From NCBI RefSeq assembly GCF_000003605.2, contig NW_003134354.1, positions 151,088-188,564 of the forward strand: a stretch of DNA of 37,477 bases, written 5' to 3'. The DNA is from Saccoglossus kowalevskii. Its lineage: Eukaryota; Hemichordata; Enteropneusta; Harrimaniidae. The position numbers and the translations under genes are program-made. Below, piece after piece: positions 3,147 through 32,685 of the stretch (position 1 is its first letter; each line of letters begins with the position of its first letter). Below the pieces are notes generated by a model. The model was not told where the DNA came from. It saw only the letters and a list, made by a program, of their open reading frames with translations, and did no database searches.

Positions 3147-3306
3147 ACGTGCTAAGGAACCAATATCATCCTAAGCTCCCTTGAAGGAAATTAACAATAT
3201 CCGTGTGTGCTAAAATCTATTTTCTTATTTTCTTTTGTTTCTCTTTTTATTTATGTGTATTGTGCACAGTTCGTTAAACTCTTATTCATTTTTTTTTAAA
3301 TTTTGT

Positions 3307-3308
3307 AT

Positions 3309-3387
<79 letters not shown>

Positions 3388-3413
3388 TTAAATAATTTAT
3401 TTATTTATTTATT
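3307..3413. repeat. (TTTA)n microsatellite, interrupted
   Basis: A second long TTTA array with one AAATAAT interruption near 3390. It lies 1.2 kb from the first array in the same orientation and phase of unit. Confidence 0.97.
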
Positions 3414-5904: not shown

Positions 5905-7035
5905 ATGGCAAGCGAAGTCACAACAACTGCAGCGCCGGTCATTCAAAGCGATTCCGTTGACGACGCCGTGGACTTAGTCGTCCCGAAAAAACGTATACGC
6001 CATTCAAGCGACATGCTGCCTGCCGAAGACCACTCCGAAGGCTCCGCTACGGATACTTCCGAGCCGAACTCGCCGCTTCCAACGAACGCAGTTGTGGATA
6101 AGTCACGTCATCACCGTGTGCATTCGGACTCGGAATCCGATGGGGAATCATCAAGCGGGTCGACAAGTGCGGGGAAACCACATGGAGTTCGACTTGTGCC
6201 GCAACTATCACAGTCGGCGTTGGAGCAACAGTTTATATTCCCGTCAACATCGTCGGCAGTTACGATGCCACTTCGGATGAATACGAATAGGATGATGCGC
6301 CCGTTCAAGGCCTACACCGCAAGTCGGGATCTCCTGTCCTACGCTGGGCTCGGGGCTGCGGGTCTCCATCAACACTCCGCTGCTTTCTCTCTCGGGATGC
6401 CCACGTTGTTTCCATTCGGTCATGGTATGCACCCATCATTGGCACCCCACTTGATGAATTTAGCGAATGAAGCCGCCAAAACTATTAATCCTAATCAACA
6501 TTACCAATTGCAGATGCCACGAAAAAGGCCAGTTCCGTCATCAACGGTAACCACAGCATCGGCATCGGCATCGTCCGCGGCGTCGGCGTCGGCATCGTCA
6601 ACTTCATCATCGCCTCGCAGTCAGATCAGTCCAGACGGCAGCGCGTCATCGCCACCGGGACGAAAACACATCCAAAGTGATAAAAGGGACAGTACAAAAA
6701 ATGCCGCTATCTCGTCATTAAATTCTTCGTTGTCTCAAAAGCCGTCGTCATCATCACCTTCTTCGTCATCTTCGTCGTCGTCGTCTACTTCCGCTTTACT
6801 CCCGCCAAAGAAGAGACGTTCTTTACCGGATGAGCTGAAAGATGAGTCCTACTGGGAAAGAAGGAGGAAGAATAACGAAGCAGCGAAACGATCTCGGGAT
6901 ATCCGGAAAGCAAAGGAGGACGAAATCGCGATACGGGCCGCTTTGCTGGAACAGGAAAATATACGTCTGAGAGTTGAAGTTGCTTCGTTGAAGGAAGAAA
7001 CTGCCAGACTTCGTTGTATACTGTATAATGGTTAG
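5905..7035 (+). CDS. bZIP transcription factor, Ces-2/NFIL3/PAR-like
   Basis: A 376-residue nuclear, sequence-specific DNA-binding protein encoded without introns. The bZIP domain fills the C-terminus (about 308-373). It starts with DESYWERRRKNNEAAKRSRD, in which N323, A326, A327, S330 and R331 are the base-contacting positions. The zipper heptads fall at I341, L348, L355, L362 and L369, and the protein ends seven residues later with LYNG. The YWxRRRKNNxAAKRSRD basic region is diagnostic of the PAR/NFIL3/Ces-2/Giant group. Glu325 matches NFIL3 and invertebrate Ces-2-like members, whereas vertebrate PAR proteins carry Met or Val there. RPFKAY (132-137) resembles a short motif I recall from Giant-like relatives. 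KKRIRH (28-33) and PKKRR (301-305) are likely nuclear signals. Ala-Ser and poly-Ser tracts (219-236, 280-296) come from TCR/GCR codon repeats. The start has A at -3 and G at +4. These proteins recognise TTAYRTAA as dimers. Exact orthology is uncertain. Confidence 0.95.
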   Translation: MASEVTTTAAPVIQSDSVDDAVDLVVPKKRIRHSSDMLPAEDHSEGSATDTSEPNSPLPTNAVVDKSRHHRVHSDSESDGESSSGSTSAGKPHGVRLVPQLSQSALEQQFIFPSTSSAVTMPLRMNTNRMMRPFKAYTASRDLLSYAGLGAAGLHQHSAAFSLGMPTLFPFGHGMHPSLAPHLMNLANEAAKTINPNQHYQLQMPRKRPVPSSTVTTASASASSAASASASSTSSSPRSQISPDGSASSPPGRKHIQSDKRDSTKNAAISSLNSSLSQKPSSSSPSSSSSSSSSTSALLPPKKRRSLPDELKDESYWERRRKNNEAAKRSRDIRKAKEDEIAIRAALLEQENIRLRVEVASLKEETARLRCILYNG

Positions 7036-20355: not shown

Positions 20356-20780
20356 TATCCTAGTATTGCGGATATAATATAATAATGTATAACGCTCGAT
20401 ATATCTAAACACGCATGTCTAGGGGAATCTGCCAAACCCAGGGATTGCACCATATAATCATTGGACACTATTGTATATGTTGTTTACACTATTAATCTGT
20501 CTTTTGTTTTTCATTATAATTTTAGTCTAGAAATTAAATGTGTTGTTAGATTAGGCTTAAATGGAGATGCCCCTTTAATATAACAACACCCACAGCACCG
20601 ATGACTCCACGGCAGCCAAGTGTGCCCCTGAACCAAACACAATCGTTGTAACTCATATAATGCGTTGGTGCATGATGTACAAATCTGGAGACTGGCTGTA
20701 CCCAATCTAGATCACGTTATACTGCCCTCAGACAACAAGTATAGTCTGACTCAATCAATTAAAATGTGAAGTATTGCTTT

Positions 20781-20903
20781 GAATGGATGAATGAATGAAT
20801 GAATAAATGAATGAATGAATGAATGAATGAATGAATGAATGAATGAATGAATGAATGAATGAATGAATGAATGAATGAATGTGAATGAATGAATGAATGA
20901 ATA
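20781..20903. repeat. (GAAT)n microsatellite
   Basis: About 30 GAAT units with small interruptions (a GGAT unit near the start, AAAT near 20804 and GTGAAT near 20881). Read on the minus strand it gives a spurious Ser-Phe-Ile-His repeat peptide. Confidence 0.97.
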
Positions 20904-30520: not shown

Positions 30521-30526
30521 TTTATT
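30521..30526 (-). terminator. Poly(A) signal of the FAM181-like gene
   Basis: AATAAA on the minus strand (TTTATT on plus), the first after the FAM181 stop codon. It implies a 3' UTR of roughly 350-370 bases across 30500-30874, in which no other gene is seen. Confidence 0.5.
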
Positions 30527-30874: not shown

Positions 30875-32128
30875 CTACATATGGATCGGATGATAGCGCT
30901 GAGGGTAACTTGTGATAGATTTGGTTGGAATGGGTTTTAGGATACGAGGTGTACTGTTGGAATTCAACGAATCTGTAATCGTTGTTGCTGCAGGGGAAAG
31001 TTGTAAATTCAATGGCGGTGGAAGTGTCCCGCTGGAGTTGGCGGACGGAGACATCATTGATGAATAAAAGTTATGGCGTGGATAAAAACTCATACTGTCG
31101 TAAAATGAGAGCTGGTTACACCCAACCATGGGTGACGCGGTGGGTCCAGCAGGTGTGTGGTGGTGGTGATGGGCATGACAGTTACACGGTGGTGGCGCAC
31201 TGGTTGATGCCGCGGCCGCACTTGCCCGATAGAAAGCGGCCATATGACTGGTACTGAAATCACTCATTGGAGCAAACGGATAGTGGTGAAAATGATAATT
31301 GTTATTAGGGTGCAAAGTAGTGTCAGCCAACGGAATCGAAGGAAAAATAAAAGCGCCTTTCTCATTGTCTTGTTCTCGTACTTGATGGTGAACTATGGCA
31401 CTGATCGAATGTTTAAGTTCTGTTTGTTTGGACTGCGATGAGTTTGATATTACCTTATGCATTCCAGGTGACATGTCGCCGTCTTTACCTGGTTCCTGCC
31501 AAAATGATGCCGGCAATCGTCGTTTTCGAAGCGGCACTGGATTTCCAGCGTCGTCTCCTTTACCCGTTCGAATTTGTTTCACGTTGTCAGATTCGATTCC
31601 ATCGCTCTTGTATGATATATCACTTCCCTTCATCACATCGTGTTGATGGAATTCACCCGAACTTCCCAAAGACATGTCCGTGATGTAGCTCAGTTCCGAT
31701 GCGCTGTCGCTTCCCTCGGACGTGAGGCTCGAGACACTGGTTGAGCGTTTCTTTAGACAGCGCAATGGTTCAACTCTGCCGGTCTGTGCGGTTACTGGGT
31801 GGTACACGTTTCGGTTGCAGTCGTTAATAGTTCGCTCGCGATCAGTTGGCGAAAATCGCTTCAATTGTTTTTGCAGATATTTCCTATGATCGACAGATTT
31901 TTTACAAGGAGCAGACTTATCGAGCGCCGCTTTGATATCACATGAAGCAAGGTTGACAAAATTTAACAAAGTCTTTACATCGCCTTCCGATGACTGTGCC
32001 TGGGCCATAATATTGGTCCGGCACTTAGACTGAGAATTCTGCTGCGAGCTATCGCCAGTCTTGTCCGACTTGGGCCCAGAAGTAATCACTGCAGCGTCTC
32101 CGCAGGAGTGGTCGTCAGCTTGTGTCAT
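30875..32128 (-). CDS. FAM181: FAM181-family protein, TEAD-binding type
   Basis: A 417-residue protein encoded without introns. Residues 49-93 carry the family signature: GDVKTLLNFVNLASCDIKAA, then LDKSAPC with KSVDHRKYLQKQLKRFS. This is very close to vertebrate FAM181A/B as I recall them. A second motif, RRLPASFWQEP (203-213), matches the TEAD-binding omega loop of YAP (RKLPDSFFKPP) and of vertebrate FAM181 proteins. The hydrophobic anchors are L205, F209 and W210, with S208 and R203 also kept. The linker between the motifs is Ser-rich and probably disordered. The C-terminal third is rich in His, Pro, Ser and Tyr, with a CNCHAHHHHH run at 315-324. I see no signal peptide or membrane segment. 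A nuclear role on TEAD is inferred from vertebrate work. The ATG has A at -3. No upstream in-frame extension looks better. Orthology to FAM181A versus FAM181B is not resolvable; it probably represents the pre-duplication gene. Confidence 0.95.
   Translation of the reverse strand: MTQADDHSCGDAAVITSGPKSDKTGDSSQQNSQSKCRTNIMAQAQSSEGDVKTLLNFVNLASCDIKAALDKSAPCKKSVDHRKYLQKQLKRFSPTDRERTINDCNRNVYHPVTAQTGRVEPLRCLKKRSTSVSSLTSEGSDSASELSYITDMSLGSSGEFHQHDVMKGSDISYKSDGIESDNVKQIRTGKGDDAGNPVPLRKRRLPASFWQEPGKDGDMSPGMHKVISNSSQSKQTELKHSISAIVHHQVREQDNEKGAFIFPSIPLADTTLHPNNNYHFHHYPFAPMSDFSTSHMAAFYRASAAAASTSAPPPCNCHAHHHHHTPAGPTASPMVGCNQLSFYDSMSFYPRHNFYSSMMSPSANSSGTLPPPLNLQLSPAATTITDSLNSNSTPRILKPIPTKSITSYPQRYHPIHM
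31490..31516 (-). other. TEAD-binding omega-loop motif, LPASFWQEP
   Basis: These nine codons encode residues 205-213 of the FAM181-like protein. The L-P-x-S-F-[FW]-x-x-P pattern is the YAP/FAM181 interface-3 loop. I do not recognise the helix that accompanies it in YAP, as expected for FAM181. Confidence 0.85.
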
Positions 32129-32685
32129 GTTTGCTAAGTAAAAAGCACAGAAGGAGACGGAGTGACGTGTCTACCAATCCTCTCCTTCCTAATTGATGGT
32201 CAACCGTATTCTTCGTGATGATTGGTGACAAGTATTACTCTCTGGGTATCGGGTTGCACACACTCCGACAGCTGCGCAGGCCAGTGGTAGGAAACTTCTC
32301 AGTTTGCAGCCGTTATATGCGACAGACAGCCTTGCTATTAGAGCATCATAATGTCCGACTACTTGACGTGAATATCCACAACGCCTATTCAAACGCAGAC
32401 AACTTCTTTGACATACATCACCGGGTAAATGTTATTGTAGTAATTGTTTTTAAACTATGGACCTTATCAGCGGGAACGAATGTACGGCACTCAGTGTATA
32501 CATTATCAACGCACGCACAGTGGATGGGTATAAGAGAAGTACCGAAGCTTTTGTTCTGGCTCCGAGCGCGATACACTCACTCTTTAAACGGCCTATGTGT
32601 TCACATGAACAGCACAGCGAGGATCGTGATGCCACTTTGACGAACTGTCTACAGAATAGCCAAGTCACTGGGAGAGTGTACGGGG

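Follow-up and report, generated by a model that had tools for sequence, protein, structure and literature searches.

Coding frame and other features of the window

The window, by which we mean the whole stretch of 37,477 nucleotides analysed here, carries on its minus strand a frame of 417 aa without interruption, designated P0001 (Table 1). The frame is opened by the first start codon past an in-frame TAG. Fourteen codons separate this TAG from the ATG, which has an A at -3. When the window was copied 200 times by a first-order Markov model, the longest frame starting with ATG was 220 aa (mean 128), against 417 aa for P0001. The plus-strand reading of the same positions contains many stops and was ruled out. 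Most of the protein is unconserved and rich in Ser, Pro, Ala, Thr and His. The Pfam scan returned the model of a TEAD-binding loop, PF15238, and as its sole other match Rad9, which at 16.1 bits is below the cut-off of 25 and was taken as chance; PHROGs gave no match. The heptamer LKPIPTK, found close to the C-terminus, is absent from the three host paralogues L002, L003 and L032 described below. Presumably it is also part of human FAM181A.

Table 1. Features of the FAM181A-like gene, in positions of the window
Feature	Position	Strand	Basis
In-frame TAG, upstream bound of the P0001 frame	32171..32173	-	sequence reading
Coding frame, 417 aa, FAM181A-like protein (P0001)	30875..32128	-	frame reading; length compared with Markov copies
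N-terminal conserved block, residues 49-93; also in L002, L003, L032	31850..31984	-	sequence comparison; PMC9710580
Omega loop / TEAD interface 3, residues 198-213 (VPLRKRRLPASFWQEP)	31490..31537	-	PF15238; PDB 6l9f peptide; genome profile search
LKPIPTK, residues 397-403	30920..30940	-	sequence reading
AATAAA, possible polyadenylation signal	30521..30526	-	348 bases past the stop

Elsewhere in the window, a plus-strand frame of 376 aa (5905-7035) encodes a bZIP domain (PF07716, 56.8 bits), which we take to have the look of the PAR/CES-2 type. A TGAA tetranucleotide array of 31.2 copies lies at 20780-20902, and TTAT and TATT arrays occupy 1993-2089 and 3306-3413. With P0001 and the bZIP frame counted apart, the Pfam scan of 20 of the 24 window frames of at least 90 aa gave no match.

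The omega loop of P0001

An earlier note on this DNA had described an invertebrate FAM181 protein with an intact omega loop. This description is borne out by the Pfam scan, in which PF15238 (TEADIR3) covers the loop over the full length of the model at 33 bits (cut-off 26), and by the presence of the loop residues that the note had named. Its residue numbers for the loop motif (LPASFWQEP, 205-213) and for a conserved N-terminal block (49-93) are exact, and the basic residue that it placed two positions before the leucine is R203, ahead of L205. The note gives no strand for the frame. A profile search of the genome with PF15238 gave the same loop 37.3 bits. A peptide of human FAM181A (PDB 6l9f) ranks first among five solved-structure matches to P0001 (E 0.0029, residues 197-213). 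The pattern R.LP.SF[FW]..P was met in none of 200,000 shuffles of the P0001 protein.

By position, L200, R203 and L205 of P0001 are the counterparts of YAP Met86, Arg89 and Leu91, and S208, F209 and W210 those of Ser94, Phe95 and Phe96. The roles of these YAP residues and of TEAD4 Glu263 and Asp272 are described in PMC5400505 and PMC10146773.

Over 17 columns, the P0001 loop is identical to that of human FAM181A (letters from PDB) at 13 positions, to those of the host proteins L002 and YAP and to a provisional FAM181B loop sequence at 11 each, to human YAP at nine and to a PERCC1-like host protein at eight. Among the seven loops compared, only those of P0001 and FAM181A have the tryptophan. 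The loop separates the B type weakly: L002 agrees with the provisional FAM181B loop in 13 of 17 columns and with host YAP in 12, and the provisional FAM181B loop agrees with host YAP in 13. Of the human FAM181 stretches compared, the FAM181A loop alone could be checked; its letters agree with PDB and with one paper.

Loop proteins of the host

The genome searched comprises 572 Mb in 4830 contigs. PF15238 produced six matches in it at E up to 10. Four are above the cut-off (window 37.3 bits, C1550 34.9, C1210 30.5, C2602 30.1) and two are below it (17.7 and 17.2 bits); this search could overlook a loop interrupted by an intron. None of 14 control genomes had a match above the cut-off, and seven had matches below it.

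The locus on C1550 is YAP: a single frame there encodes the motif LEDLF, the loop and the beginning of a WW domain, whose first 18 positions match at 20.3 bits, below the Pfam cut-off of 26.9. C1210 carries a PERCC1-like gene (L008), with LNELF and an SFFKEP loop in one stop-to-stop frame of 269 residues. The gene on C2602 (L002) is a second FAM181 gene, FAM181B-like, with the N-terminal block (N-block), the motif LAALF (133-137) and an SFFAEP loop. Outside the block and the loop, P0001 and L002 agree at 63 of 286 aligned residues. An LxxLF motif is thus present in three of the four host loop proteins found, and none occurs in the 417 residues of P0001, a feature that is absent from the earlier note. 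Neither PPxY nor a WW match was found in P0001.

In genome_contigs, the search for relatives returned sets of 14 and 87 pattern matches without a relative among them, and viral_contigs searched with P0001 gave none either.

The N-terminal block and the genes that carry it

In the description by Sanchez-Pulido et al. 2022 (PMC9710580), the FAM181 family is marked by a conserved region near the N-terminus (residues 59-106 of human FAM181B) and by TEAD interfaces. According to this paper, the N-terminal region is helical by prediction, is related to PERCC1 and is also present in C19orf85, which has no TEAD motifs. The paper cites an annelid FAM181 member. The literature consulted gave no function for the 49-93 block, in agreement with the earlier note.

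With P0001 as the query, the N-block was located at three places in the host genome; the query P0002 gave four, namely the window, L002, L003 on C3983 and L032 on C3354 (E 6.1e-4). In all four genes a single open frame, 384 to 417 residues long from the chosen ATG, holds the N-block. Over 49 aligned residues, L002 is identical to P0001 at 27, L003 at 23 and L032 at 20. Judged by its codons, the N-block is under selection, because P0001 and L002 share 26 of 41 residues (columns 54-94) and encode 20 of these 26 by different codons.

The loop pattern and LxxLF are both missing from the proteins of L003 and L032; the genome search placed no PF15238 match within them, and they gave no Pfam match. 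The fact that two loop-less host paralogues keep the N-block suggests that what the FAM181 family has in common at its core is this block and not the TEAD loop. Its presence in these two genes also suggests that it acts without contacting TEAD through an omega loop. One of the two could correspond to human C19orf85.

An N-terminal stretch of the PERCC1-like protein L008, LLSFAEMVNADI, resembles the FAM181 N-block. In viral_contigs, a search with the N-block alignment gave 161 pattern matches, of which three (L025-L027) passed tblastn with 57% identity over query residues 19-44. None of the three was accepted as a relative, on the evidence of L025, whose match lies between two phage frames, in a frame that stops close off shortly before and after it.

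A type and B type

The original FAM181 paper is said to place LxxLF in FAM181B only. The published accounts disagree on the interface-2 helix of the human proteins: in PMC10146773 FAM181A binds TEAD at interface 3 only and both FAM181A and FAM181B are without the helix, whereas PMC9710580 gives FAM181 both interfaces 2 and 3.

P0001 looks like FAM181A in having the loop tryptophan and no LxxLF, as against L002 with LxxLF and an SFF loop. The N-blocks appear to sort in the same way. Over 41 columns, that of P0001, which may correspond to the human FAM181B region 59-106 of PMC9710580, is identical to FAM181A at 37 positions and to FAM181B at 24, and that of L002 at 27 and 35, respectively; the human blocks, like the FAM181B loop, are provisional sequences that were set down later than those of the host and could be biased by them. 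With the same provisional N-blocks, the quartet contains ten informative sites for P0001 with FAM181A and L002 with FAM181B (nine in the block, one in the loop). It thus looks as if P0001 pairs with FAM181A and L002 with FAM181B. The earlier note had assumed a single invertebrate FAM181 and a vertebrate duplication; this does not agree with the four N-block genes of the host and, on provisional human N-blocks, with the A-like and B-like pairing of two of them.

The split between FAM181A and FAM181B looks older than vertebrates, with what seem to be separate A-type and B-type genes in the host. Since the host is a hemichordate, the split would precede the parting of ambulacrarians and chordates if the pairing stands; this dating covers ambulacrarians and chordates. 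The available text of PMC9710580 contains nothing on the timing, and the string "duplicat" occurs in it 0 times. Among the matches listed for FAM181, for FAM181A with FAM181B and TEAD, and for C19orf85, no title dealt with the age of the split, most subscription papers being outside the scope of the search. FAM181 was also absent from the papers among the matches listed on Saccoglossus, amphioxus and sea urchin.

The TEAD gene and other contigs of the host

A TEAD gene is present in the host, with TEA-domain exons and middle exons found on contig C1646. For its YAP-binding domain, PF17725 gave no match in the genome, and this model gave no match anywhere. A provisional human bait sequence gave no match, and tblastn against a 140-kb portion of the contig, about 47 kb of which is N, returned nothing convincing. 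A stretch of 23.5 kb (C1646:632165-655669), which may be a gap or withheld sequence, reads N, 1.5 kb beyond the last TEAD exon found. On the minus strand of the same contig (L018:9009-9204, G000:C1646), two similar stretches 64 bases apart each resemble the terminal part of the TEA domain (QVSSHIQVLA...) and differ in the residues that follow. It is possible that they are mutually exclusive TEAD exons.

The innexin model gave no match on the host genome, in line with a host outside the protostomes; it gave none in the 14 control genomes either, so this negative result is weak.

The mitochondrial contig, C4830, is 17,037 bases long. Its COX1 is best matched, among solved structures, by chains including 7o37 and 1occ, which we take to be from mouse and cattle. 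In COX1 and cytochrome b together, ATA faces Ile at eight, Met at one and other residues at eight of 17 aligned places, and AAA faces Lys at five of six. According to PMC2697986, ATA as Ile is common to echinoderms and hemichordates and AAA as Asn is an echinoderm change; nad5 and cob adjoin in hemichordates and in Xenoturbella, which is without the ATA change. The two genes also adjoin on C4830, where genes were named by eye from translations and COX1 and cob were confirmed. The mitochondrial order of Branchiostoma and Epigonichthys is vertebrate-like and that of Asymmetron contains cox1-cox3-nad3 (PMC2034537); the order of C4830 differs from both lancelet orders given in that source. Together, the mitochondrial code and gene order point to a hemichordate as the most likely host; AAA as Lys speaks against an echinoderm, and a protostome is disfavoured. 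On the same contig (L023-L024), with names given by eye, cox1 runs in the reverse direction to the adjacent cox2 and nad1, nad2 stands before nad1, and near-identical repeated frames follow cox2.

Proposed role of the protein and alternative explanations

We propose that the P0001 gene is probably the FAM181A of the host and encodes an adaptor whose contact with TEAD is a single omega loop, without an LxxLF helix, while its N-block binds something else. Such a protein would be nuclear. L200, L205 and F209 would enter the hydrophobic pocket of TEAD interface 3, R203 would contact an acid of the Asp272 type and S208 one of the Glu263 type, and W210 would cap the loop. The helix for TEAD interface 2 would be missing. 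The N-block, a predicted helix followed by the basic stretch HRKYLQKQ, would bind something other than TEAD, because two host paralogues keep it and have no TEAD loop. P0001 would probably act as a weak, loop-only TEAD ligand that brings the partner of its N-block to TEAD, or else compete with YAP for interface 3.

The assignment to FAM181A would be misleading if a single FAM181 of ancestral type had been duplicated separately in the host lineage and in vertebrates, with the A-like and B-like features converging. FAM181 proteins are mostly unalignable beyond the two motifs, so the tree signal is small, and the human N-blocks used were provisional. However, none of the informative sites supports either of the other two groupings, and the loop tryptophan and the missing LxxLF both go with the A side; we therefore regard separate duplications as unlikely. 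A more drastic deviation from the proposed identity, namely that P0001 is a divergent YAP/TAZ or PERCC1 gene and not a FAM181, might be suspected from the fact that one Pfam loop model matches the YAP, PERCC1-like and FAM181 proteins of the host. This can hardly be the case, since YAP and the PERCC1-like gene are found at separate loci, and P0001 has the FAM181 N-block and lacks PPxY, LxxLF and a WW match.

The proposed docking on TEAD, too, has an alternative. The loop could be a relic in a protein that works through its N-block and C-terminus, TEAD binding having been lost in the host. Two host relatives do without the loop, and the isolated loop of YAP is a weak ligand of about 100 uM (PMC10146773). 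A relic would drift, though, and the P0001 loop has kept the named contact residues and scores highest of all PF15238 matches in the genome, ahead of host YAP, which makes this explanation quite improbable. The FAM181A-like adaptor thus remains the preferred reading of P0001.

Novelty and significance

FAM181 outside vertebrates, with its loop and N-block, is already published (PMC9710580), TEAD binding there being a published prediction. The second, YAP-independent TEAD partner outside vertebrates that the earlier note had inferred has a known precedent in Drosophila Vg (PMC7566471). What is new is the set of genes in the host genome. Human FAM181A and FAM181B have been reported to bind TEAD, their function being unclear (PMC10146773, PMC12672301); they bind TEAD4 in co-immunoprecipitation with no settled effect on transcription (PMC12672301), and in BioID of human cells FAM181A ranks with the most strongly enriched neighbours of TEAD4 (PMC11574045). 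Of three modules tied to larval cilia in an echiuran annelid, module 8 has a gene called FAM181B at the top of its hub genes (PMC10380512). The name "FAM181" has also been used in a different sense, to denote the portion of YAP that binds TEAD (PMC8526868).

A wider and rather speculative picture may be drawn from the host genes, to which we give a low probability. FAM181A and FAM181B would be two ancient genes, split before the parting of chordates and ambulacrarians, alongside at least one loop-less N-block gene, and the lack of the interface-2 helix would be an old, kept design of the A type. A loop-only ligand would leave TEAD interfaces 1 and 2 free, so that FAM181A and a Vestigial-like protein could share one TEAD, and the N-block would be the effector linking TEAD to a partner common to the N-block proteins. 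Should the split and the differing motif sets (the loop by itself in one type, LxxLF with the loop in the other) be older than vertebrates, findings in a simple deuterostome would inform both human genes. The searches turned up a single TEAD gene in the host and one FAM181 gene per type. Its two loop-less paralogues make the search for the N-block partner well posed.

Comparison with known TEAD-binding proteins

Vertebrate FAM181A shares with P0001 13 of the 17 columns of the solved loop peptide, together with the tryptophan and, on provisional human letters, 37 of 41 N-block residues and LKPIPTK. P0001 differs in coming from a non-vertebrate; the comparison covers the loop, the N-block and the heptamer. 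Vertebrate FAM181B and the host gene L002 have the N-block and the omega loop in common with P0001; L002, however, has LxxLF and an SFF loop, P0001 is without LxxLF, and their N-blocks agree at 26 of 41 positions. C19orf85, as described in PMC9710580, and the host genes L003 and L032 are like P0001 in their N-block and unlike it in having no TEAD loop. YAP/TAZ and PERCC1 share with P0001 the interface-3 loop (PF15238). In the host, both YAP and the PERCC1-like protein carry LxxLF, and YAP the start of a WW domain, whereas P0001 has neither of these features.
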